Source: Chlorobiaceae bacterium (GTDB taxonomy: Bacteria; Bacteroidota; Chlorobiia; Chlorobiales; Chlorobiaceae). From it: a DNA stretch of 56,103 bases. This document shows, piece after piece, positions 3,354 through 55,976 of the stretch. The translations under genes were made by a program, and so were the position numbers. A model generated the notes under the pieces. It did no database searches and was not told the origin of the DNA. It saw only the letters and a program-made list of their open reading frames with translations. The stretch spans positions 1 to 56,103 of the forward strand of contig JAAXWP010000005.1 in NCBI GenBank assembly GCA_013334925.1, read 5' to 3'. Within the stretch, counting starts at the first letter, position 1; each line of letters begins with the position of its first letter.

Positions 3354-3875
3354 ATGTCATCATTGCAGAGAAGAGCGGTGGATCTCAGGGTCAGTGCCTT
3401 GTGTGTTCAGGACGGCAAGGTGCTGCTTGTGGAGCATCGCACGTTTGCGCCCGGGGATCCCGGCATGCCGGACAGCTGGTGGATTCTGCCAGGCGGTGTC
3501 GTCGAGCGTGGCGAGACGCTCGAGGAGGCCGTGAAGCGCGAAATGATCGAAGAGACGGGACTGGAGTGTTCGGTCGGGGAAATGGTTTTTGTCAAGGAGC
3601 TGCTCTATCCGCATCCTGGATACGAAGGACAGGGAAGCCGTCATCATTCGGTGTCCCTGGGTTTTATTTGTGAAGTGACCGGCGGAACACTGGTTACCGG
3701 CAAGGACCCCGAGTTTCCCGACGACCGCCAGGTTATCCTGCAGACAAGCTGGCTGCCGCTTGAACAATTGCACACCTACAGTCTCTATCCTCCATTTCTT
3801 CCCGGATTCATCGAAGCTGGCCTGCGTGACGGATTCAGCTCCATGTGCCCGGGATTCTTCGATTCGCTGCTGTAA
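3354..3875 (+). CDS. Nudix hydrolase
   Basis: 173 residues. The Nudix box is complete: G-G-V-V-E-R-G-E-T-L-E-E-A-V-K-R-E-M followed by IEETGL (about residues 45-69), with the glutamates that bind Mg. It hydrolyses a nucleoside diphosphate linked to another group; the substrate cannot be read from sequence. The start ATG at 3354 follows an A-rich leader. The stop codon lies inside a 26-bp perfect hairpin. Convergent with the outer-membrane protein gene at 3985. Confidence 0.88.
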   Translation: MSSLQRRAVDLRVSALCVQDGKVLLVEHRTFAPGDPGMPDSWWILPGGVVERGETLEEAVKREMIEETGLECSVGEMVFVKELLYPHPGYEGQGSRHHSVSLGFICEVTGGTLVTGKDPEFPDDRQVILQTSWLPLEQLHTYSLYPPFLPGFIEAGLRDGFSSMCPGFFDSLL

Positions 3876-3927
3876 AAGCAAAGTGCCAGGTAATTTGAAG
3901 ATACCTGGCACTTTGCTTTTACAGCAG
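3867..3927. repeat. 26-bp perfect hairpin overlapping the Nudix stop codon
   Basis: Left arm 3867-3892 and right arm 3902-3927 are exact reverse complements with a 9-base loop (ATTTGAAGA). The core of the arm is AAAGTGCCAGG/CCTGGCACTTT. It starts inside the last codons of the Nudix gene and lies between convergent genes, so it may act as a terminator or be a REP-like mobile palindrome; it has no T-run. Confidence 0.85.
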
Positions 3928-4904: not shown

Positions 4905-5855
4905 TTATCGTGCCAGAAGCCGGTGCAGCACCGCCATTCTGACGGCCACTCCGTTGGTCACCTGTTCCATGAGCATACTGCTCGAGTAACCGGGAGGCTG
5001 GATTCTGTCGGCTACGTGATTCGAGATTTCGATCTCTCGGTTGATCGGGCCGGGATGCAGCACCGGAAGATGCTTCTGCAACCGGTCGAGCTTCTCGTCG
5101 GTCAGTCCATATGACGCAGAATACTCCTGGAGTGATGGAATGTAACCTCCTGTTGCCCGTTCGAGCTGCAGACGCAGCACGATGGCGGCATCGGCCCAGG
5201 CGATGGCCTTTTCCAGCTCGGTGAAAATTGTTATTCCCAGCTCGCTGATTCCTCCTGGCAGAAGCGTCGATGGACCGCATACGGCGATCTCCGCACCAAG
5301 GGTTCTGAGCGCGAAGATGTTGGAGCGTGCGACGCGGCTGTGCAGGATATCGCCAAGAATCATGATTTTGAGACCAGCGATCTTGCCGAAGTGCTCACGA
5401 AGGGTCAGGATGTCGAGCAGTGCCTGGGTCGGGTGTTCGTGGGTTCCGTCACCGGCGTTGACCACCGGGCGGTCCGTGATCGATGCGACGAACTCCGCAG
5501 CTCCCGAAGAGGGGTGTCGCAGGACGAACGCATCGACCTGCATGGCTTCGAGGTTCCTGATGGTGTCCGAAAGGGTTTCGCCCTTGCTGACGCTGCTCGA
5601 TGCAGCCGCAAAGCTGAGCGTGCTGGCGCCGAGGTTGCGGGCGGCGAGTTCGAAGGAGAAGCGGGTGCGTGTCGAGTTTTCGAAAAAGACGAGCGCGATA
5701 CGCCGGTTTCCGAGTACCGGACTGAATGCCGTGTCTCCTTTTTTCAGCCCTGAGCGATACGTCGCGGCCAGGTCGAGAAGCTCTTCGATTTTGGCTGCAG
5801 GCAGATCGTAAAGTCCCGTAAGATGTTTCAAAACTGTGTATTGATTTCTGGGCAC
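4905..5855 (-). CDS. pyrB: aspartate carbamoyltransferase catalytic subunit
   Basis: 316 residues, full length for the catalytic chain. Carbamoyl-phosphate loop FFENSTRTRFSFELA, the HPSSGAAE segment replacing the usual second loop, NAGDGTHEHPTQALLD and the late LHPGPINRE motif are all present. It makes carbamoyl-aspartate for pyrimidines. The most upstream start is GTG at 5855, which lies inside the terminal inverted repeat of the element at 5850-5991; there is no well-spaced Shine-Dalgarno. An in-frame TTG eight codons later (before K-H-L-T-G-L) is the other possibility. Confidence 0.95.
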   Translation of the reverse strand: MPRNQYTVLKHLTGLYDLPAAKIEELLDLAATYRSGLKKGDTAFSPVLGNRRIALVFFENSTRTRFSFELAARNLGASTLSFAAASSSVSKGETLSDTIRNLEAMQVDAFVLRHPSSGAAEFVASITDRPVVNAGDGTHEHPTQALLDILTLREHFGKIAGLKIMILGDILHSRVARSNIFALRTLGAEIAVCGPSTLLPGGISELGITIFTELEKAIAWADAAIVLRLQLERATGGYIPSLQEYSASYGLTDEKLDRLQKHLPVLHPGPINREIEISNHVADRIQPPGYSSSMLMEQVTNGVAVRMAVLHRLLAR

Positions 5856-5991
5856 CTCTAAAAACTTGTTCCGCGACCCGGTAGCTGCGTTGGTCGGTGC
5901 TCGAAATCCTCATGTACTCTGTGTACACTCCGGTTTCTGCGCTCCGTCTGCCTTGCTCTCGGGCCGCTCACGACACTTTGTAGAGGTGCCC
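5850..5991. repeat. 142-bp element with 11-bp terminal inverted repeats
   Basis: Perfect inverted ends GGGCACCTCTA (5850-5860) and TAGAGGTGCCC (5981-5991). The left end overlaps the pyrB start. An internal 30-base segment (5888-5917) recurs exactly, in the opposite orientation, at 55909-55938. No open frame of note, so this is a non-autonomous MITE-like or REP-like repeat. The rest of the stretch up to 6172 holds only the hypA leader. Confidence 0.75.
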
Positions 5992-7401: not shown

Positions 7402-9716
7402 GGAAGCCGGGGGAACAGCATCCCGGCGGCGTCGCGCGGCTTCGCATCGAGGTCGGCGGCATCGTTCAGGGGGTCGGTTTCCGGCCCTTTGTCTGGAGGC
7501 TTGCCGGCCGTTACGGACTTGGGGGTTTTATCCGGAACACCTCTTCCGGTGTGCAGGTCGAGGTCGAGGGACCTGTAGCCCTGCTCGACCATTTCCGGGA
7601 GGCTCTCGAAAAAGAGGCGCCTCCGCTTGCCCGGATCGCTTCGGTGAAAAGCGTGGAGATCGAACCGCAGGGGAGCTGCAGGGATTTCGAGATTGCCGGT
7701 TCTTCAGGCGGCGATGCGATCGATACCATGATCTCTCCGGACATCGCAACCTGCAAGGCGTGCCTCAGGGACCTCGAAGAGCCTTCCGGCAGACGTTTCC
7801 GTTACCCCTTCACCAACTGCACGGATTGCGGACCACGCTATACCATCGTCGAGGGGATTCCCTACGACCGGCCGCTTACCACGATGAAGGGTTTTGCCCT
7901 GTGCCCGGAATGTGAGCGGGAGTATCGCGATCCCTCGAACCGCAGGTTCCATGCCCAGCCCAATGCCTGCCCGGTCTGCGGACCGAAACTTACGCTCTGC
8001 GACCGATCGGGTGCCATCGTCGATGCGGACGACGTTTTCGCCGTGGCGGCGGATCGGCTTGCTGCCGGTGAGATTCTCGCCATCAAAGGAATCGGCGGTT
8101 TCCACCTGGCGGTCGATGCGTCGAACGACGAAGCGGTGCTGCGACTGCGCCAGAGAAAGATGCGCGAAGAGAAACCCTTCGCCGTCATGGCGCGAGACCT
8201 GGAAACCGCAAATGCGTTGTGCGAAGTCGGCGAAGAGGAGGCCGCTGCCCTCGTTTCGCCTGAAGCGCCTATCGTACTGCTCCATAAAAAGGATGTATCT
8301 GGTGTCGCTCGATCGGTCGCTCCGGGTAACGACCGTCTCGGCGTGATGCTGCCCTATGCGCCGCTGCACCATCTTCTGATGCATGTGGCTCCGCCGGTGC
8401 TGGTGATGACGAGTGCCAACCTCAGCGAGGAGCCGATCGCCTCCGGCAATGAGGAAGCGCTGGAGAGGCTTGGAGGTATCGCGGACCTGTTCCTCATGCA
8501 CGATCGTCCGATCGCCCAGCGGTGCGATGATTCGGTCGCCATGCGGTTTGGCGGACGGATGCGCATCATCAGAAGAAGCCGTGGATACGTTCCCGCTCCG
8601 CTTTTCCTGAAAGAGGGAGGGCCTGCCGTGCTCGCGACCGGCGGGGAGCTGAAGACGGCCCTTTGTCTGATGAAAGGTTCCGAGGCGATCATGAGCCAGC
8701 ATATCGGGGACATGAAGAACTTCGAGGCCTGGCGCAATTTCGATGCCGTCTCGGAACACCTGCAGCGGATCTTCAGGACGAAGCCTGAGCTGGTGGTTCA
8801 TGATCTCCATCCATCCTACCTGACGACCCGATGGGCGCAGATGACGGGAAAGCCGTTGCTTGGCGTGCAGCATCACCATGCCCACCTGGCTTCCTGCCTC
8901 ACGGAGTGCCGCTTCGACGGGCCGGCCATCGGGATCATGCTCGACGGTTCCGGCTACGGTATCGACGGTACGGTCTGGGGCGGCGAAGTGCTTCTGGGCG
9001 ACTCATCCGGAGCGACCAGGTTCGCTTCGCTCGAACCTATGCCGCTTCCCGGTGGCGACGCCGCCGTCAGACATGTCTGGAGGACGGCGCTCGGTTATCT
9101 CTACCGGAGCGGGGTCGTTCCGGACGGTCTTTCCTGCATGGTCCTGCCTGGAGCTGACATGGTGGCAGAATTGCTCTCCAGGGGAACCGGTTGTGCCGAA
9201 ACGTCGAGCTGCGGGCGCCTGTTCGATGCTGTGGCTTCGATCTGCGGAGTCCGGCATGAGGTGCACTACGAGGGGCAGGCTGCGGTGGAGCTCATGCAGG
9301 CCGCTTGCGGACGGGTGGCGGATTCCGGTTTCAGTTTCGGGTTCGAACGACGGAACGGCCTCTGGCTGATGCTGGTTTCAACGATTGTCGATGAGGTGGC
9401 GGAAGCCGTCCGGAGCGGTATGGACGCTGGTGAGGTGAGTCGTCGCTTCCACCGGACCCTTGCCGGTATGCTTTCAGAAGTTGCCCGGATGGCCTATCTT
9501 GAGACGGGTCTGAAGACTGTAGCTCTGGGAGGCGGTGTTTTCCAGAACGCACTGCTCCTCGAAACCCTTGTGCATGACCTGGAGACCAATGGTTTCAGGG
9601 TGCTTTTCCACGAGCAGGTGCCGACCAGCGATGGTGGACTCTCACTCGGTCAGGCGGCCATCGGAAGGGAATTTCTGAAGGGCCGGTACAGGGGAGTAGT
9701 GACGAGTGACACGTGA
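7320..9716 (+). CDS. hypF: carbamoyltransferase HypF
   Basis: Up to 798 residues. Order: acylphosphatase domain (LRIEVGGIVQGVGFRPFVWR), two zinc-finger-like Cys motifs (CKACLRDL...CTDCGPRY, CPECEREY...CPVCGPK), a YrdC-like domain (ILAIKGIGGFHLAVDA, MTSANLSEEP) and the Kae1-like carbamoyltransferase part (HHHAHLASCL, GIDGTVWGGE, ALGGGVFQN). It makes the CN ligands of NiFe hydrogenase from carbamoyl phosphate with HypE. The coordinates use the only standard upstream start, GTG at 7320, which overlaps hypB by 82 bases. The real protein may start near 7398 at a CTG preceded by GGAG, overlapping the hypB stop as CTGA. Confidence 0.93.
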   Translation: MDRSVGKERRGTRSLEDLADLETGAPLRKPGEQHPGGVARLRIEVGGIVQGVGFRPFVWRLAGRYGLGGFIRNTSSGVQVEVEGPVALLDHFREALEKEAPPLARIASVKSVEIEPQGSCRDFEIAGSSGGDAIDTMISPDIATCKACLRDLEEPSGRRFRYPFTNCTDCGPRYTIVEGIPYDRPLTTMKGFALCPECEREYRDPSNRRFHAQPNACPVCGPKLTLCDRSGAIVDADDVFAVAADRLAAGEILAIKGIGGFHLAVDASNDEAVLRLRQRKMREEKPFAVMARDLETANALCEVGEEEAAALVSPEAPIVLLHKKDVSGVARSVAPGNDRLGVMLPYAPLHHLLMHVAPPVLVMTSANLSEEPIASGNEEALERLGGIADLFLMHDRPIAQRCDDSVAMRFGGRMRIIRRSRGYVPAPLFLKEGGPAVLATGGELKTALCLMKGSEAIMSQHIGDMKNFEAWRNFDAVSEHLQRIFRTKPELVVHDLHPSYLTTRWAQMTGKPLLGVQHHHAHLASCLTECRFDGPAIGIMLDGSGYGIDGTVWGGEVLLGDSSGATRFASLEPMPLPGGDAAVRHVWRTALGYLYRSGVVPDGLSCMVLPGADMVAELLSRGTGCAETSSCGRLFDAVASICGVRHEVHYEGQAAVELMQAACGRVADSGFSFGFERRNGLWLMLVSTIVDEVAEAVRSGMDAGEVSRRFHRTLAGMLSEVARMAYLETGLKTVALGGGVFQNALLLETLVHDLETNGFRVLFHEQVPTSDGGLSLGQAAIGREFLKGRYRGVVTSDT

Positions 9717-9738
9717 CCAGTGGAAAACAGAAAAAATG

Positions 9739-9875
9739 TCATGGACGATATGGACGTAATGGACTGCATGGACAGAATGGACTGAATGGACCGGAAGGGA
9801 TTGAGATGGTTTTCATCTTTTATATTGTCCATTATGTCCATCAAGTCCATGATTTTCTTCGTCCATTCCGTCCAT
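9739..9875. repeat. ATGGAC 9-nt repeat hairpin, copy 1
   Basis: Six ATGGAC units exactly 9 bases apart (starting 9741, 9750, 9759, 9768, 9777, 9786) are followed by five inverted GTCCAT units (9827, 9836, 9845, 9861, 9870). The two arms can pair in several registers to form a long imperfect hairpin. It fills the gap between hypF and hypC. Two more copies lie at about 16990-17158 and 55757-55877. Confidence 0.88.
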
Positions 9876-11281: not shown

Positions 11282-12319
11282 ATGCAACTCAGCTGTCCTG
11301 CCCCCATTCTCCGCCACGAAACGGTCCAGATGGCCCACGGGGCCGGAGGGCGCCTGTCACAGGAGCTAACGCAGCGGGTCTTCATGCCGCATCTGCAGAA
11401 CGCGTTTCTCGACCAGCTCGACGACCAGGCCAAGTTCGACACCGTGCCCGGACGAATGGCTTTTTCAACCGACACCTACGTCGTCTCGCCGCTCTTTTTC
11501 CCCGGAGGCAATATCGGTGAACTTGCCGTGAACGGTACGGTCAACGACCTGGCGGTCGGCGGGGCCGTGCCGATGTACCTCAGCGCAGGCTTCGTGCTCG
11601 AAGAGGGGTTGCCGCTTGCCGAGCTCGAAGAGATCGTCAGGAGCATGGCCGAGTCGGCCCGCAAGGCTGGGGTGATGATCGTGGCGGGGGATACCAAGGT
11701 GGTGCAGAAGGGGCAGTGCGACAAGATTTTCATCAACACCTCGGGCGTCGGCTTTGTTCGGGAGGGGGTGGATGTCTCCTGCCGGAACCTGAAGCCCGAT
11801 GATGCGGTGATCGTGTCGGGCACGATCGGTGACCACGGCATGGCCGTGATGACCACCCGTGAAGGTCTTTCGTTCCAGAGCCGCATATCAAGCGATACGG
11901 CAGCCCTGAACGGCATGATCCATGCCGTGCTCGACGTCGTGCCAGGAGTTCATGCCATGCGTGATCCCACCAGGGGTGGCGTCGCGGCTACGCTCAACGA
12001 ACTCGCATCGTCGTCTTCGGTCGGCATCGAACTTCAGGAGTCGTCGATTCCTGTCAGGGAAGAGGTTCGCGGTGCGGCGGAACTGCTCGGCATCGATCCG
12101 CTCACGGTCGCCAACGAAGGAAAGCTGCTGCTGATCGTGCCGGAAGCTGAAGCTGGAAGGGTGCTCGAGGTGATGCACGCCCACGAATACGGCCGGGAGG
12201 CAGCGCTTATCGGTAAGGTTGTCGATGATCATCACGGCATGGTGGTCATGCGAACTCCGTTCGGCAGCCGCCGCATCGTCGAGATGCCTCTTGGCGAGCA
12301 GCTTCCCCGCATCTGCTGA
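11282..12319 (+). CDS. hypE: hydrogenase maturation protein HypE
   Basis: 345 residues from ATG 11282 directly after the hypD stop; the frame is open further upstream but inside hypD. PurM-like ATPase features HGAGG, FSTDTYVVSPLFFPGGNIG, VAGDTKVV, MRDPTRGGVAATLNE, and the required C-terminal PRIC, whose Cys carries the thiocarbamate dehydrated to thiocyanate. Last gene of the hyp cluster; convergent with modA. Confidence 0.97.
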   Translation: MQLSCPAPILRHETVQMAHGAGGRLSQELTQRVFMPHLQNAFLDQLDDQAKFDTVPGRMAFSTDTYVVSPLFFPGGNIGELAVNGTVNDLAVGGAVPMYLSAGFVLEEGLPLAELEEIVRSMAESARKAGVMIVAGDTKVVQKGQCDKIFINTSGVGFVREGVDVSCRNLKPDDAVIVSGTIGDHGMAVMTTREGLSFQSRISSDTAALNGMIHAVLDVVPGVHAMRDPTRGGVAATLNELASSSSVGIELQESSIPVREEVRGAAELLGIDPLTVANEGKLLLIVPEAEAGRVLEVMHAHEYGREAALIGKVVDDHHGMVVMRTPFGSRRIVEMPLGEQLPRIC

Positions 12320-12323
12320 AATA

Positions 12324-12389
12324 CTGGGGTCAGGCCTTGCAAAAGTTGCATAATCTGAAAAACACAAGTTTTGCAAGGCCTGACCCCAG
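12324..12389. repeat. 66-bp palindromic repeat, copy 1 (hypE/modA)
   Basis: Arms of 21 bp, CTGGGGTCAGGCCTTGCAAAA (21 bases written as positions 12324-12344; core GGGGTCAGGCCTTGC) and its exact complement at 12369-12389, plus three more pairs after one mismatch. Nearly identical to the copy at 13218-13283. Ends 2 bases from the modA stop codon. Palindromes starting GGGGTCAGG are familiar near REP-associated (RAYT/IS200-like) transposases; no such transposase is in the window. Confidence 0.9.
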
Positions 12390-12391
12390 GG

Positions 12392-13153
12392 TTATTTCAG
12401 TTCATACCCCCACTTTCTCAGCACACTCTTTGCTTCGGTGCTTTTCAGGTAGTCGAAAAACGCCGAGGCTTCATGGTTGGTCGAGCCTTTCCTGGTTACG
12501 CCCATCGTGTAGGGAACCCTGGTGTAAAGGTTTTGGGGCACCCTGAAGAGGATCTTTGCCGATCTGGCGGTCAGGGCTTCGGTCAGATGGACGAACGAAG
12601 CGTCGACCGTTCCCGATTCGGCATACATGAGGCTTTCGAGAACGTCTTTGGTCAGTACCAGCCGGCCTTCGAGCTGTCGTTCGAGTCCGGATTTCCTGAT
12701 CGCTTCAAGGGCCATCTCACCTGCAGGAGCGCTTTTGGGATTGCCGAGGGCTATCTTGCCGGCATTGGCAAGGTCTTTCATCGATGAAATTCCTGAAGCA
12801 GGATTACCGATGACGACGATGGAGTTCCAGGCGAATGGAGCAATCCGCCTGTTATCCAGCAGGTTTTTATCCCTCAGGTAGTAAATCCACTTTTCGTTGG
12901 CCGAGATGAACAGATCGGTCGGGGCACCGTTTTCGATCTGTGCCGCGAGAGCACCCGACGGTCCCCAGTTTCTGACAAAGGCAGTACCCGGATGCTTTTT
13001 CGTATAGTTGTCGGCAAGTTCGTTGACCACATCCTTCATTCCTGCGCCCGCTGAAATGCGTACCTCATCGGCAAAGGCTGTCGAGATGGATGTCATGGTA
13101 AGCAGCAGGCTGAACATGAGTGTTTTACAAGTTGTCATAGGGTTGTGTGGCAT
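12392..13153 (-). CDS. modA: molybdate ABC transporter substrate-binding protein
   Basis: 253 residues with a signal peptide (CKTLMFSLLLTMTSISTAFA, cleavage near AFA-DE). The mature part has the ModA features VRISAGAGMKDVVNELAD, GPSGALAAQIENGAPTDLFISA, and a C-terminal SAFFDYLKSTEAKSVLRKWGY. It binds molybdate or tungstate in the periplasm. A ModE-type operator lies at 13169-13192, just upstream. The start could also be the ATG five codons in (13138). No modB or modC adjoins it: downstream is the convergent hyp cluster. Confidence 0.92.
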   Translation of the reverse strand: MPHNPMTTCKTLMFSLLLTMTSISTAFADEVRISAGAGMKDVVNELADNYTKKHPGTAFVRNWGPSGALAAQIENGAPTDLFISANEKWIYYLRDKNLLDNRRIAPFAWNSIVVIGNPASGISSMKDLANAGKIALGNPKSAPAGEMALEAIRKSGLERQLEGRLVLTKDVLESLMYAESGTVDASFVHLTEALTARSAKILFRVPQNLYTRVPYTMGVTRKGSTNHEASAFFDYLKSTEAKSVLRKWGYELK

Positions 13154-13168
13154 TTGGTTGCTGTATTG

Positions 13169-13192
13169 CGTTATGTTTTTATAAATATAGCG
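13169..13192 (-). promoter_or_regulatory. ModE-type operator upstream of modA
   Basis: CGTTAT-N12-ATAGCG, a 24-bp near-palindrome of the shape known for ModE sites (CGTTAT-N12-ATAACG in the E. coli modA operator, as recalled). It starts 15 bases upstream of the modA start, where molybdate-bound ModE would block transcription. Confidence 0.75.
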
Positions 13193-13217
13193 ATGGCCAT
13201 AGAAACTGTTGTTTTAC

Positions 13218-13283
13218 CTGGGGTCAGGCCTTGCAAAAGTTGCATAATCCGAAAAATGCAAGTTTTGCAAGGCCTGACCCCAG
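13218..13283. repeat. 66-bp palindromic repeat, copy 2 (modA/modE)
   Basis: Same 21-bp arms (13218-13238 and 13263-13283) as the copy at 12324-12389, with only a few differences in the loop. It ends 7 bases before the modE stop triplet region at 13291 and follows the modE gene on the coding strand, mirroring how copy 1 follows modA. Confidence 0.9.
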
Positions 13284-13290
13284 AGTTATA

Positions 13291-14139
13291 TCAGTTTACG
13301 CCGATGATGACGCTCGAGGCCTTGAAGAGCGCACAGGCCTTGTCTCCCTCTTTGAGCTCCAGCCGCTCGCGGCTGCCATGGGTGATGATGGCCGAGATGA
13401 TGTTGCCCCCACCGATTTCGATGTCGATTTCGCAGCTGACCGGTCCGTCGATGACTCGCTGGACCTTGCCGCACATGATGTTGCGGGTGCTGATGTTCGT
13501 CCCTTCCAGATCCCGGCCCACGATCACCGAATTCGATTTGACGATTGCATAGGCGCTCATTCCGTTTTTCAGGCCGAGGTTGTCCACGGCGCCATTGGTG
13601 ATGATCGATGCGATCTGCTGGCCTCCGCTCAGGCTCAGGATCACTTCGGCATTCACGGCCCCTTTCCTGATCTCCACGATCTTTCCGGAGAATACATTTC
13701 GGGCGCTGATCCTCATGGAGATTCTTCTGAGGAACTGGTAGAGGTCCCCGGTATCGCCGATTCTCTCTTCGAGGTTTTCAAGGAACTTGCGGTGCTCCTC
13801 CTGCACGATCCGGTACTGTTCGATCACCTGCCGGCCCTCGCGGGTGAGCACGGTACCTCCGCCTCCTTTGCCACCGATCATGCGGTCGACCAGCGGCTTG
13901 TCGGAGAGGTTGTTCATCATGTTCACCAGATGCCAGGCGGTTTTGTAGCTGATGCCGACAGCCTTGGCGGCGCTGTTGATCGAACCGAGCTCGTCGATCT
14001 TTTCGAGCAGCGCGATCCGGTCACCGCCAAGAAACTTGTTCTGGGATTTCTGGAACCAGATGGAGCCTTCGAGTCCGATAGGGTCTTTTGTCCTGTTCAC
14101 GTTGCGGGTCCGGTTAAAGTGAAACGAGCCATACATCAA
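13291..14139 (-). CDS. modE: molybdate-responsive regulator ModE
   Basis: 282 residues. N-terminal winged helix (about 40-125) with FLGGDRIALLEKIDELGSIN, AAKAVGISYKTAW, GGKGGGGTVLT, the typical LysR-like HTH of ModE. Then two molybdate-binding Mop/TOBE domains: ISARNVFSGKIVEIRKGAVN (about 145-212) and ISTRNIMCGKVQRVIDGPVS (about 215-282). It binds molybdate and represses uptake genes. It sits between modA and the TonB receptor, all leftward, and three matching operators lie in front of these two neighbours. Confidence 0.93.
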   Translation of the reverse strand: MMYGSFHFNRTRNVNRTKDPIGLEGSIWFQKSQNKFLGGDRIALLEKIDELGSINSAAKAVGISYKTAWHLVNMMNNLSDKPLVDRMIGGKGGGGTVLTREGRQVIEQYRIVQEEHRKFLENLEERIGDTGDLYQFLRRISMRISARNVFSGKIVEIRKGAVNAEVILSLSGGQQIASIITNGAVDNLGLKNGMSAYAIVKSNSVIVGRDLEGTNISTRNIMCGKVQRVIDGPVSCEIDIEIGGGNIISAIITHGSRERLELKEGDKACALFKASSVIIGVN

Positions 14140-16980: not shown

Positions 16981-17160
16981 CTGTCGGACATGGACCTGAT
17001 GGACATTATGGACTGAGTGGACGATATAAGAGAAAACAAACAGGACGTGGCTTCCTGGGGAATCCTGCAAAGTACCTCCTGCATTACCGGTTGTTTTTCT
17101 CTGACATTGTCCATGACGTCCATCGCTTTAATTCGTCCATTGTGTCCACAACGTCCATTT
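16981..17160. repeat. ATGGAC 9-nt repeat hairpin, copy 2
   Basis: Units start at 16990, 16999, 17008 and 17017 (the last GTGGAC), 9 bases apart; the inverted arm has GTCCAT-type units at 17109, 17118, 17135, 17144 and 17153. It lies between nifB and the ferredoxin gene, so it should be part of the nif transcript. Confidence 0.85.
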
Positions 17161-40748: not shown

Positions 40749-41258
40749 ATGAGTGATGTATCGATAATCTGTGATTTCAGGTCGCGTTGCCTCGAGTGGC
40801 GCAATGTTGACGATGTGGTCATGGGCGGTGTTTCACACAGCGCCCTGCAGTCAGACTCCGGCAAACCCGCGATTTTTTCGGGAGTACTGTCCCTGGATCG
40901 GAATGGCGGTTTTGCTTCGGTCAGGACAACGCTTGAGCGTCACGATTTCTCGGCTTTCGACCGTTTCAGGATCAGGGTGATGGGGGATGGAAAACGGTAC
41001 AGTTTCAGGGTCAGAAACGATGCACGCTTCGACGGCGTGGTGTATGCCTGTGATTTCGGTACGGTTGAAGGGCAGTGGATGGAGATCGATCTGCCGTTTT
41101 CTGCATTCAGGCCTCTGTTCAGGGGGGCGACCGTATCCGGAGCACCGCCTATGGACCCCGGGAAGATCGTGCAGATAGGTTTTCTCATCGCCTCGAAGCA
41201 GGAGGGGCCTTTCTGCCTGGAGCTCGACTGGATCGGCGTTACGAGTGCTGAATGCTGA
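40749..41258 (+). CDS. CIA30-family protein
   Basis: 169 residues. Starts at ATG 40749, 14 bases after the VanZ-like stop. WRNVDDVVMGGVSHS, GVLSLDRNGGFASVRT, YSFRVRN, IDLPFSAFRPLFRG and IVQIGFLIASKQEGPFCLELDWI are the typical jelly-roll CIA30 (complex I intermediate-associated protein 30) motifs. In bacteria the role is not defined. The last codons (TSAEC) and stop run into the heptamer repeat that begins at 41243. Confidence 0.85.
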   Translation: MSDVSIICDFRSRCLEWRNVDDVVMGGVSHSALQSDSGKPAIFSGVLSLDRNGGFASVRTTLERHDFSAFDRFRIRVMGDGKRYSFRVRNDARFDGVVYACDFGTVEGQWMEIDLPFSAFRPLFRGATVSGAPPMDPGKIVQIGFLIASKQEGPFCLELDWIGVTSAEC

Positions 41259-41494
41259 ATGCTGAGTGATGAATGCTGAGTGAGGAGTGCTGAATGCTGA
41301 ATGCTGAGTGAGGAGTGCTGAATGCTGAATGCTGAGTGAGGAGTGCTGAATGCTGAATGCTGAGTGATGAATGCTGAGTGCTGAATGCTGAGTGAGGAGT
41401 GCTGAATGCTGAATGCTGAATGATGAGTGCTGAATGCTGAGTGAGGAATGCTGAGTGAGGAATGCTGAATACTGAATGCTGAGTGATGAATCTT
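41243..41494 (+). repeat. heptanucleotide tandem array, GARTG type
   Basis: About 35 contiguous 7-base units, all in one register, chiefly GAGTGCT, GAATGCT, GAGTGAG and GAGTGAT, decaying at 41488-41494. The stop codon of the CIA30 gene lies within the second unit. The reverse strand is open in this region as a seven-residue peptide repeat (SIQHSAF type), which is a by-product of the period. Confidence 0.9.
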
Positions 41495-41746
41495 TACTTG
41501 TCACTTGTCACTCGTCACTCGTCACCCGTCACTTGTCACTCGTCACTCGTCACCCGTCACTCGTCACTCGTCACTCGCTACCCGTCACTCGCTACCCGTC
41601 ACTCGCTACCCGTCACTCGCTACCCGTCACTCGTCCCCCGTCACTCGTCACTCGTCACTCGCTACCCGTCACTCGTCACCCGTCACTCGTCACCCGTCAC
41701 CCGTCACTCGTCACTCTTCCCCCGTCACTCGTCACTTGTCACTACT
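41495..41746 (+). repeat. heptanucleotide tandem array, CACTCGT type
   Basis: 36 further 7-base units in unbroken register, mainly CACTCGT, CACCCGT, TACCCGT and CACTTGT, ending CACTACT at the hisF stop codon. Its complement (ACGAGTG) resembles the units of the preceding array, so the two form a long inverted pair. Confidence 0.9.
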
Positions 41747-42501
41747 CACAGCCTTACCGCAATGCCCCGGTTACGGAGATACTCCTTCGCCTCACGTATC
41801 GAATGCTGGCGGAAATGGAAGATCGACGCGGCAAGCGCGGCATCGGCATGTCCTTTCGTGAATCCTTCGTAGAGATGTTCGAGATTTCCTGCACCTCCCG
41901 ATGCGATGACCGGGATGTGGACCGAAGTGGATATCCTGCACAGAATATCGTTGTCGTAACCCTCTTTGGTGCCGTCGCGGTCCATGCTCGTCAGCAGAAT
42001 TTCCCCTGCTCCAAGTTCCTGCACTCGGTGTGCCCACTCTACGGCCTCCATACCGGTCGAGTTCTTGCCCGAATGGGTATGGACGATGTATTCGCCGTTG
42101 ATTTTCTTGACATCGATTGCCACGACAACGGCTTGTGAACCGAACTTTTCAGCAATCCGGGAGATCAGCTCGGGTTCTTTGACTGCCGCCGTATTGACCG
42201 ACACCTTGTCGGCCCCATGCAGGAATGCGTCACGGGCTCTTTCAACCGAACTGATGCCGCCTCCTACCGTCAGGGGTATAAAGACCTCGCCGGAAACTTT
42301 GAGCACCTCCTCGAGTGTTGTCCTTCGGGATTCGAGCGATGCCGATATGTCGAGAAACACCAGTTCGTCCGCCATTTCGCCGTTATAGAACCTGGCCTGT
42401 TCAAGAATGGAGCCGGCGTCCCTGAGTCCTTCGAAATTGATACCCTTGACAACTCGTCCGTCACGGACGTCGAGGCAGGGAATGATCCTTTTGGCTAGCA
42501 T
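41746..42501 (-). CDS. hisF: imidazole glycerol phosphate synthase subunit HisF
   Basis: 251 residues, (beta-alpha)8 barrel. [23 protein letters not shown], catalytic Asp in CLD and in [38 protein letters not shown], and [11 protein letters not shown]. Cyclase half of the histidine and AICAR-forming step, partner of HisH (not in the window). Its stop abuts the second heptamer array, and its promoter region is divergent from the Cys-protein gene. Confidence 0.97.
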
Positions 42502-48564: not shown

Positions 48565-48657
48565 GATGGTCTGCACAGGAATGCCGCACGCAAGTGAGGT
48601 AGAGTAGGTGAAATGGGGGACACCTGCTCATTAAAAAGCGGCCTCAAGCCGCTTTTT
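48565..48657 (+). ncRNA. candidate sigma-54-driven small RNA, unit A
   Basis: Predicted RNA of about 93 bases from GATGGT (11 bases beyond the -12 GC) to the end of the terminator. Parts: 5' segment GATGGTCTGCACAGGAAT, then AGTGAGG, hairpin AGGTG-AAATGGGGGA-CACCT (48606-48625), and terminator AAAAAGCGGC-CTCAA-GCCGCTTTTT (48633-48657). No frame with a ribosome binding site of useful length. Shares 5' end, loop and terminator with unit C. Confidence 0.75.
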
Positions 48658-48789
48658 CCTGCAGGCCAACAGTTGTGATGAGGTAATGTACAATATGGTA
48701 TAAGTGGTTACGGTTGTTACAGGACAAGCTCATATGCACATCGAAGAGCCCCGTTGAATATCGCGTAGAGCGATGAACAGACATTACGA

Positions 48790-48867
48790 GTGTCCTGCGC
48801 AAGCAGGGCTGGGCAGGTGAAATGGGGGACACCTGTTCGCAAAAAAAGCGGCTTTGCCGCTTTTTTT
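48790..48867 (+). ncRNA. candidate small RNA or repeat 3' module, unit B
   Basis: Hairpin CCTGC-GCAA-GCAGG (48794-48807), then CAGGTG-AAATGGGGGA-CACCTG (48814-48835), then AAAAAAAGCGGC-TTT-GCCGCTTTTTTT (48841-48867). Same loop and terminator as units A and C but no sigma-54 promoter is visible; the 5' end is not determined and may lie as far up as about 48700. Confidence 0.6.
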
Positions 48868-48926
48868 GTTTTATGCTTTTTTATCTGCAATCAGAATTTT
48901 AGCAGCACGCTATGCAGTCAGACGTC

Positions 48927-48960
48927 GACAATGCTCGATGCGTGTTGCAATATTTGTCAT
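48927..48960 (+). promoter_or_regulatory. conserved block upstream of small RNA unit C
   Basis: GACAATGC, TCGATG and GTTGCAATATTTGTCAT (48944-48960), matching the block before unit A. It lies 152 bases upstream of the unit C -12 element, further than in unit A, as enhancer sites may. Confidence 0.5.
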
Positions 48961-49098
48961 CTTTGTGTCTTTCTGAGATTTATATCCCGGTTTGAGACAG
49001 ATCTGAAGACCTCCTATAGCCCCTTTTTTTCTGTTCTGAACTTATTAAAGCCTTGATTTACAGTGCTTTTCGGTGATTATGCCGAAAAAAAGAGCTTT

Positions 49099-49114
49099 TG
49101 GCAAGCTTCTTGCC
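49099..49114 (+). promoter_or_regulatory. sigma-54 promoter of small RNA unit C
   Basis: TGGCAAGCTTCTTGCC, with GG and GC 12 bases apart; two changes from TGGCAC/TTGCA but all invariant bases kept. The site is also a palindrome (TGGCAAG/CTTGCCA). Confidence 0.78.
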
Positions 49115-49122
49115 ATACTATT

Positions 49123-49221
49123 GATGGTTTGCATAGAATTGTCTCGCGCCAGTGAGGCACGGTGGGTGAATGGGGGACACCTGCCAACAAAAAAAGCGGC
49201 TTTTGGCCGCTTTTTTTGTTG
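49123..49221 (+). ncRNA. candidate sigma-54-driven small RNA, unit C
   Basis: Predicted RNA of about 99 bases starting GATGGTTTGCATAGAATT, again 11 bases after the -12 GC, as in unit A. Then AGTGAGGCA, hairpin GGTG-AATGGGGGA-CACC (49165-49181), and terminator CAACAAAAAAAGCGGC with its complement (49185-49221). The terminator also serves the leftward mdh gene. Confidence 0.75.
49185..49221. terminator. bidirectional terminator between small RNA unit C and mdh
   Basis: Perfect 16-bp stem with A/T tails: 49185-49200 and 49206-49221, loop TTTTG. T-runs follow on both strands. It lies 20 bases beyond the mdh stop codon. Confidence 0.9.
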
Positions 49222-54320: not shown

Positions 54321-55757
54321 ATGAGCTCGATGGAAAAGAACAAATCGGTACTTCTGGTGTTCGTCCAGGCCTCGAGTGGTGTGGATGGTGCGGCTTCGCT
54401 CGATGCCGAAGCTTCAAAAGGGCTTTTTTCGCTGCTGAAGGACCGGGCTCTGTCCGGTGTGATCAAGCGGGCGCAGTTCGCCATCCCCCCGTTGTCGCTT
54501 ATGATCCTCGCTTCTGTCGATGTCCCCGGGGTAACCCAGGAGTTCTGCGACCTGCGCTTCGACCGGTTGCCGCTTGACCGGCACTGGGACCTCGTTGGCA
54601 TCGGTGTCCAGACCGGAGCGGCTCGGCCCGCGTTCGAACTTGCCGCCCGTTTTCGCCAGCGTGGCACCAAAGTGGTGCTCGGAGGCCCCTATGCCACGAT
54701 CTTTCCGGAGCGATGCCGCGAACACGCCGATGCGCTGGTTATCGGTGAGGCCGACGATATCTGGGAAAAACTGCTCGAAGATCTCCGCGACGGTCACCTG
54801 AAAGCTGAATACCGGCAGGGAGCGTTTCCTGACCTGTCGCTCGAGCGCCCGGTCAGCAAGTCGATGCTCGATATCGGCAGCTACTTCACCACCAACGTAG
54901 TCCAGACGACAAGGGGATGCCCGTTCAGCTGCGATTTCTGCAGCGTGCACGTCATGAATGGCCATCGGTTACGCCACCGGCCGGTCGACACCGTCGTCAG
55001 GGAGGTCGAGCGGTTCCTCGAACAGGATCGAAGGATCTTCTTTTTCCTCGATGACACGGTCAACGCCGACGAGGCTTATGCACAGGAGCTCTTCTCAAGG
55101 CTCATACCCCTGAAGATCCGGTGGGTCGGTCAGTCGACGACCGCGCTCGGCGAAAATCCCCGTCTGCTCGAGACCTTTGCCCGTTCGGGATGCGGTGCAC
55201 TGCTGGTCGGTATCGAAAGCCTCGCCGACGCAAGCAACCAGGCTCATCACAAGTTCCACAATCCGGCAGCACGCCAGGCCCGGTGCATCAGGGCGATCAG
55301 GGATGCTGGCATCTGTGTATACGGCAGTTTCATTTACGGACTCGATGGCGATACGGCTGCCATGGCCGGGACGATCGAAGAGTTCATCGAAGAGACGGAG
55401 ATTGACGTGCCGGGCATCAACCTGCTGCGTCCCATTCCAGGAACACCGGTCTTTGACCGGCTCGCCGACGAAGGACGGCTGCTGCATGGGCGCGACGACC
55501 ACGAAGCCTTCAGGTTTTCCTGGGCGCAGGAGATGCTCTACCTGCCGAAACAGATGAGCCTCGAAGAGTTCGTGCCCAGTTATACCGGCCTGACATCACG
55601 GGTGTTCACGATCGGAAACGCCGTGCGCAGGGCATTGCGGGCCCCCACGCTTCCATCAGCGGTGCTGATGTTCAATTCGCTTTACGTGCACATGTACGGG
55701 CTGTCGAGGCGGGATCTGAGGAAACAGATGGCGGGACTCAGGAAAGGAGTGAACTGA
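54321..55757 (+). CDS. B12-binding-domain radical SAM protein
   Basis: 478 residues. N-terminal Rossmann-like cobalamin-binding domain (about 60-165, GIGVQTGAARPAFELA, GGPYATIFPE), radical-SAM site CPFSCDFC at about 198-205, FFLDDTVNADEAY, and GIESLADASNQAHHKF; C-terminal DUF4070-like region. Similar proteins methylate unactivated carbons (for example BchQ/BchR in bacteriochlorophyll c tails) or build hopanoids; which one cannot be told here. Ends in the TGA that overlaps the ATGGAC repeat. Probably cotranscribed with mutS. Confidence 0.88.
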   Translation: MSSMEKNKSVLLVFVQASSGVDGAASLDAEASKGLFSLLKDRALSGVIKRAQFAIPPLSLMILASVDVPGVTQEFCDLRFDRLPLDRHWDLVGIGVQTGAARPAFELAARFRQRGTKVVLGGPYATIFPERCREHADALVIGEADDIWEKLLEDLRDGHLKAEYRQGAFPDLSLERPVSKSMLDIGSYFTTNVVQTTRGCPFSCDFCSVHVMNGHRLRHRPVDTVVREVERFLEQDRRIFFFLDDTVNADEAYAQELFSRLIPLKIRWVGQSTTALGENPRLLETFARSGCGALLVGIESLADASNQAHHKFHNPAARQARCIRAIRDAGICVYGSFIYGLDGDTAAMAGTIEEFIEETEIDVPGINLLRPIPGTPVFDRLADEGRLLHGRDDHEAFRFSWAQEMLYLPKQMSLEEFVPSYTGLTSRVFTIGNAVRRALRAPTLPSAVLMFNSLYVHMYGLSRRDLRKQMAGLRKGVN

Positions 55758-55877
55758 TGGACTTTATGGACAGGATGGACCTGATGGACTGCATGGACGA
55801 AGAATCTGAATTCCGCTCTTGTGCCAAGGTCCATTACGTCCATGACGTCCACACCGTCCATTCTTGCATTCGTCCAT
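55757..55877. repeat. ATGGAC 9-nt repeat hairpin, copy 3
   Basis: Five ATGGAC units at 55757, 55766, 55775, 55784, 55793 (9-base period), and inverted GTCCAT-type units at 55829, 55838, 55847, 55856 and 55872. It starts within the radical SAM stop codon. It could be read as MDFMDRMDLMDCMDEE, but this is a by-product. Confidence 0.88.
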
Positions 55878-55908: not shown

Positions 55909-55938
55909 GTACATGAGGATTTCGAGCACCGACCAACG
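55909..55938. repeat. 30-base repeat shared with 5888-5917
   Basis: Exact 30-base match, reverse orientation, to the inside of the pyrB-proximal element. Beyond it the similarity continues weakly up to about 55975, so this is probably a truncated copy adjoining the ABC transporter 3' end. Confidence 0.8.
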
Positions 55939-55976
55939 AAGCCATCAAATCGCGCAACAGATCTGCTGGAGCACCA

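Follow-up and report, generated by a model that had tools for sequence, protein, structure and literature searches.

Hairpins just past gene ends in a Chlorobiaceae genome carry the terminal repeats of a resident Y1 transposase gene

REP transposases cleave at C|T, and in one system a tetranucleotide acts as the guide (PMC8266576). In REPIN/RAYT systems, which hold about one transposase type per genome, the transposase-related repeats are extragenic and occur as inverted doublets (PMC3116915, PMC8049555, PMC2817692). TIRtron/TIRYT elements consist of a Y1 gene between terminal repeats (TIRs) with the motif GGGGWSAS, and some of these TIRs also occur scattered as single copies, dimers or groups (Di Nocera et al. 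2013, PMC3733652). Subclass 2.1 of the TnpA Y1 transposases has been equated with RAYT group 1 and is probably TIRYT; that study found no REP-like sequences near subclass 2.1 genes (Corneloup et al. 2018, PMC6006769). In E. coli, 446 of 4,072 predicted REPs (about 11%) lie within 15 nt of a stop codon (PMC12306157).

Here we analyze a 56,103-nt stretch of Chlorobiaceae DNA (contig JAAXWP010000005.1 of assembly GCA_013334925.1; hereafter the window), in which two near-identical hairpins stand beside molybdate genes, and the wider family to which these hairpins belong. Like REPIN/RAYT systems, this family combines two inverted units in one hairpin with a matching transposase in the genome, as seen in 40 full elements from three genomes. 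It differs from them in numbering about 20 copies rather than hundreds, in including a unit of 950 bp in which single arms enclose the transposase, and in having no GTAG tetranucleotide, since its flank is AACYCT and its arms start with GGGGTCAGG. The transposase, encoded on contig C74, resembles subclass 2.1 in being a long protein with Y-x3-NP and a sub-threshold C-terminal HTH-like stretch; unlike what is described for that subclass, the ends of its gene are dispersed as palindromic copies (PMC6006769). A hairpin a few nt past a stop is also found in E. coli, although there about 11% of REPs fall within 15 nt, against 17 of 20 sites within 7 nt here (PMC12306157). Judged by its TIR motif GGGGWSAS, the hairpin set appears to match the TIRYT/TIRtron kind best, with the difference that neither near-exclusive placement at stops nor an occurrence in this lineage was found reported for GGGGWSAS repeats in the available text (PMC3733652). 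Among the matches listed, the literature held no report of such elements in the Chlorobium lineage.

Two hairpins at the molybdate locus

The earlier note on this DNA had described two 66-bp hairpins lying a few bases beyond stop codons, and this holds, with the coordinates exact as given (Table 1). The copies share an identical, perfect outer stem of 21 bp, followed by an imperfect inner stem, and differ at 3 of 66 positions (95% identity). Folded as DNA (four strand folds) they reach z values of -8.9 to -12.2, and none of 200 shuffles matched their stability. The note had overlooked the far end of copy 1, which faces the plus-strand stop of hypE; this copy ends near two stops and therefore fills the gap between convergent genes. 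Copy 2, on its non-modE side, faces the start of modA. The gene names were tested by profile, with TIGR01256 (modA) and TIGR02124 (hypE) both above cut-off, and ModE is supported by TIGR00637 (above cut-off) and by Mop domains.

Table 1. Hairpins, arms, flanks and neighbouring genes in the window
Feature	Position	Strand	Remarks
Copy 1, full palindromic element CTGGGG...CCCCAG	12324..12389	.	Between convergent hypE and modA stops
Copy 2, full palindromic element	13218..13283	.	7 nt past modE stop, upstream of modA
Copy 1 arm with TIR motif GGGGTCAGGCCTTGC (fits GGGGWSAS)	12326..12340	+	Partner arm 12373-12387, minus strand
Copy 2 arm with TIR motif GGGGTCAGGCCTTGC	13220..13234	+	Partner arm 13267-13281, minus strand
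Copy 1 stop-side flank	12390..12394	-	modA TAA inside TAACC, then CT|GGGG; family flank consensus AACYCT
Copy 2 stop-side flank	13284..13293	-	modE TGA, then TATAACT ahead of CT|GGGG
hypE	11330..12319	+	Stop 4 nt from copy 1; gene end also occupied in G006 and G010
modA	12392..13153	-	Stop 2 nt from copy 1; gene sits between both copies
modE	13291..14139	-	Stop 7 nt from copy 2; gene end also occupied in G010

The window also holds other repeats. A perfect 26-bp inverted repeat with a 9-nt loop at 3867-3927 is unrelated to the hairpin family, and a 51-nt inverted repeat (86% complementary) spans 50 kb between 5867-5917 and 55909-55959. Tandem 14-bp units (TCACYYGTCAC-like) form a long array at 41187-41785, with a related stretch at 9688-9722, and nine-base ATGGACnnn repeats occur at 9732-9800, 16981-17022 and 55748-55798; similar ATGGAC runs lie near modE in relatives (L091). 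At 48565-49220, three local repeat copies end in GGGGGACACCTG and a terminator-like hairpin and are found nowhere else in the genome; GGGGACAC also fits GGGGWSAS.

The hairpin family and its resident transposase gene

Using copy 1 as a BLAST query against the window's own genome (G000; 2.73 Mb, 101 contigs), we obtained 45 matches, which we grouped into 21 entries (elements or single arms), including 13 full palindromes. Merging a third arm at L063:3693, which lies 36 nt from a counted element, turned these 21 entries into 20 sites. The motif GGGGTCAGGNNTTGC has 32 exact matches in this genome, and 38 at one mismatch against 7 for the reversed control. In each repeat unit a small TGCAAxxxTTGCA-like hairpin comes after CTGGGGTCAGGCCT, and the long hairpin is built from two such units in inverted orientation. 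Across the 40 full elements, the outer eleven arm positions are nearly invariant except for the outermost two, and positions 12, 15 and 17-25 vary in pairs that keep Watson-Crick pairing. Of the 34 G000 arms, 32 are flanked by C at -2 and 33 by T at -1; AA and C are over-represented at -6 to -4, and the consensus is AACYCT. The family adjoins unrelated genes as well. A second ModE/molbindin-like gene (L067:3814, contig C73) also has an arm 4 nt past its stop.

A search for a RAYT gene had been proposed alongside the two hairpins, and a Y1/RAYT-type transposase gene does lie between family arms, at G000:C74:5252-6201. The PF01797 (Y1_Tnp) profile finds eight genes in G000; in the C74 gene its match (45.9 bits, cut-off 23) spans 5360-5689, between inward-facing single arms at 5252 and 6201 that are each 3 nt past the stop of the neighbouring gene. 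Alignment places the HYH motif at H59-H61 and Y118-x3-NP as YIVLNP. Against the NCBIfam RAYT model NF047646 the protein scores 72.6 bits, below the cut-off of 80, and its C-terminus matches HTH_23 and HTH_3 below cut-off only; a search for a solved structure returned one weak match, to an unrelated molecule. The reading frame crosses the right arm and stops in the flank: at L069:5288-6217 the element's terminal repeat itself codes for the C-terminal end of the transposase (ARPDP...), and the stop codon falls beyond the element, in the antisense strand of the neighbour. The family arms are the terminal repeats of a resident Y1 transposase gene, which makes the hairpins a REPIN-like, non-autonomous set. 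The association of GGGGTCAGG palindromes with RAYT transposases, which the note had named, is in print in the form of the GGGGWSAS motif of TIRYT terminal repeats (PMC3733652).

Within the 21 genomes of the genus (Chlorobiaceae) that we compared, only G000, G006 and G010 encode close full-length relatives of the C74 transposase, with at least 58% identity over nearly the whole protein; G010 has a further partial one at 44%. Inward-facing arms surround the transposase gene in the same layout in all three, and one neighbour gene of the transposase locus is common to them. The sequence GGGGTCAG is present in all counted arms by construction of the search, and the six RAYT-flanking arms also carry it. 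Arm motifs number 32 in G000, 16 in G006 and 43 in G010, then 4 in G012, 4 in G016 and 2 in G013, with none in fifteen genomes; in G016 and G013 the few related palindromes occur without a close transposase. Each species has the arm type of its own transposase: GGCCTTGC in G000, GGCCT[TC]GC in G006 and mainly GGTCTTG in G010. Elsewhere in G000, four Y1 transposase genes lie within 23 kb (G000:C59:20690-43004; L075, L076), some of them near a second terminal motif, GGGGACGTTGTAC, that is found 8 times in exact form across the genome and 5 of these times on C59; an exact 14-mer match was obtained for the terminal repeats of one of these four transposases.

Position at gene ends and its recurrence among relatives

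Each distance runs from the last stop base to the C that opens CTGGGG, with genes taken as plain ORFs of 60 aa or more (the ORF used at L071 has 69 aa; other gene calls come from our own script). The genome-wide count suggested in the earlier note yields 20 sites, of which 17 lie 0-7 nt past a stop. The remaining three comprise gaps of 12 and 18 nt and one ORF that runs 21 nt into the arm, so that 18 of 20 fall at 0-14 nt, inside the 15-nt range used for E. coli. As a null we drew random intergenic points in 416 kb of G000, leaving out intergenic gaps above 400 nt, and 6.7% of these points fall within 7 nt of a stop. Stop-adjacent sites (0-7 nt) make up 11 of 13 in G006 and 11 of 23 in G010, counts that omit the G006 arm at C1:22386 and, in G010, three arms lying at the ends of contigs C4, C32 and C33; binomial probabilities against the null are 9e-18 for G000, 8e-12 for G006 and 7e-8 for G010, where the preference is weaker. 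The copies in G000 therefore follow gene ends and share their genome with a matching transposase, and the interpretation offered in the note was largely right.

The flank motif accounts for part of this placement at most. Non-coding AACYCT sites in the 416 kb of G000 lie within 3 nt past a stop in 3 of 64 cases, against 7 of 13 arms with an AACYCT flank by our reading, so that either stop context or selection adds to the motif; we rejected motif-only targeting as the full cause on this ground. Placement at gene ends can come from a stop-overlapping target, from selection, or from both.

By flank alignment and our own count, 15 of the 20 G000 sites have a gene end in common with G006 or G010. 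The hypE end is occupied in all three species and the modE end in G000 and G010; the L072 end is common to G010 and, by our reading, to G013 and G016. Since gene ends are shared while arms are species-specific, sites would persist or recur as their sequences are renewed, and the occupied place either predates the present arm sequence or does not depend on it. Loop sequences at shared sites did not separate independent insertion from in-place conversion.

Genome G016 is near G000 at the window locus (92% identity in hypE, 91% in modE) and is without the element at 12 of the 13 orthologous gene ends read. Its hypE-modA site is empty, at about 10% divergence and with a junction that is not alignable base for base; no exact empty/filled pair was found with this closest relative, and L187 gave no alignment. 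Among the relative loci read, several of which (together with the window's own and that of G006) have reading frames that could not be settled, only G016 has the hypE-modA arrangement. In G010 the order is hypE-element-modE, with no modA between, a layout that may be the outcome of recombination between two such copies. In a separate case, a pair of gene ends opposed across a single G006 element (L127) lie on different G000 contigs (L058, L062), where both still carry an arm or element; a rearrangement through the palindromes is possible.

The CT flank is present at both ends in most full elements of G000 and G006. Among the 17 full elements of G010 it stands at one end only in 10, at both ends in 7 and at neither in 0.

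Origin of the hairpins and competing explanations

We consider it very probable that the hairpins derive from a resident Y1 single-strand transposon of the TIRYT kind, as non-autonomous dimers of its terminal repeats (REPIN/MITE-like), and that they settle at gene ends. The transposase would cut single-stranded DNA at C|T. Such cutting, and a mobile unit T-GGGG...CCCC-A, fit the near-invariant CT ahead of GGGG, which 10 of the 17 G010 elements have at one end only; this polarity would be expected of an IS200/IS605-type insertion, but most full elements of G000 and G006 have CT at both ends. The hairpin unit T-GGGGTCAGG...CCTGACCCC-A would be inserted after a target close to AACYC, and CAGG in the arm might serve as the guide by pairing to (Y)C|TG, an idea of our own. 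Targets of this kind may overlap TGA or TAA stop codons. Because an insertion directly behind a gene would disturb neither coding sequence nor promoter, copies could settle and persist at gene ends. At old gene-end sites they would come to match the current transposase ends of their host, through conversion or re-insertion, and the two window copies may be recent sisters, one having seeded the other locally. A strong RNA hairpin this near a stop could also have effects on the mRNA, with ribosome stalling or protection of the mRNA end as the predicted ones.

In one alternative there is no targeting: copies would insert blindly, and those just past stops would remain through selection alone, this being the sole safe and perhaps useful place. 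This reading deserves serious attention, even if we would not call it probable: few stop sites (3 of 64) are predicted from the flank motif by itself, 12 of 23 sites in G010 lie outside 0-7 nt, and convergent REPs of other families are mostly less than 20 bp from ORF 3' ends without a stop-like target (PMC3733652). Neutral survivors should, however, fill the whole gap, yet co-directional gaps show hugging of the stop end and not of the start end; the motif A-A-C-Y-C-T often shares bases with the stop codon itself, and TIRYT arms in five genomes from other groups or phyla lie 0-7 nt past a stop in 0 of 27 instances. Selection could also act on function, with the hairpins serving as gene-end RNA devices (bidirectional terminators, 3'-end protectors or ribosome stallers) whose mobile origin is incidental. 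Three RNA folds of the window copies at -45.6 to -50.5 kcal/mol are in keeping with such a role, as are the gene ends common to several species and the 11 arm positions that show several Watson-Crick pair types with few mismatches, although perfect arms are equally expected from hairpin repair or transposase upkeep. Ribosome stalling is reported for those E. coli REPs that lie within 15 nt of a stop (PMC12306157), and in G016 terminator-like hairpins stand, by eye, near several orthologous stops that bear elements in G000. We nevertheless regard RNA devices as a doubtful explanation, given that arms match the transposase ends species by species, that G016 does without the element at nearly all orthologous ends, and that at L061 and L064 a terminator-like hairpin, again by eye, still stands beyond the element. 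A search for intrinsic terminators (a G+C stem followed by a T run) found no U tract and made no call at either window copy, and that reading was rejected.

The pair in the window might instead have arisen by local recombination or template switching through native AACTGA, one copy being made from the other and not by transposition. The two are each other's closest relatives (95%, next best 89%), and the G010 layout lacking modA is as expected if such copies recombine. Their stop-side flanks are also identical at 12 of 14 nt outside the hairpins, and AACTGA stands at both the modA and the modE end in element-free G016, so much of this match is older than the elements; it consists mostly of native sequence and the usual flank motif of the family. 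Against local copying, the far-side match stops at the palindrome edge, the modE end is occupied in G010 too, and TAACYCT is the ordinary flank of the family, so that independent insertions give the same look; we hold local copying to be a tentative account of the pair. The position beside modA and modE could further suggest a structured RNA of known type, such as a molybdenum-cofactor riboswitch, yet the family stands beside unrelated genes too. This was rejected as next to impossible, with no Rfam match at gathering and sub-threshold matches at the copies nearly all to microRNA-precursor hairpin models. Chance as the origin of the pair and of the family placement was likewise rejected, by the shuffles, the motif control and the intergenic null.

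Returning to the transposon-derived dimers, we put forward as a speculative extension, itself rather unlikely, that a green-sulfur transposon evolved recognition of gene ends through a stop-overlapping target, T(G)A-A-C-Y-C|T as read along the coding strand, as a safe harbour; hairpins would then be renewed in place, gene ends staying occupied clade-long while the sequence tracks the current transposase. As mobile elements they belong to a known kind, of which this lineage has its own, new variant, and their unusual points are the near-exclusive placement at stops and the gene ends shared by species with different arms. They tie a large group of transposases that is still little understood (TIRYT, subclass 2.1) to a set of hairpins dispersed in this lineage, and they offer a small natural system, of some twenty copies and three species with shared gene ends, for separating targeting, selection and sequence renewal.
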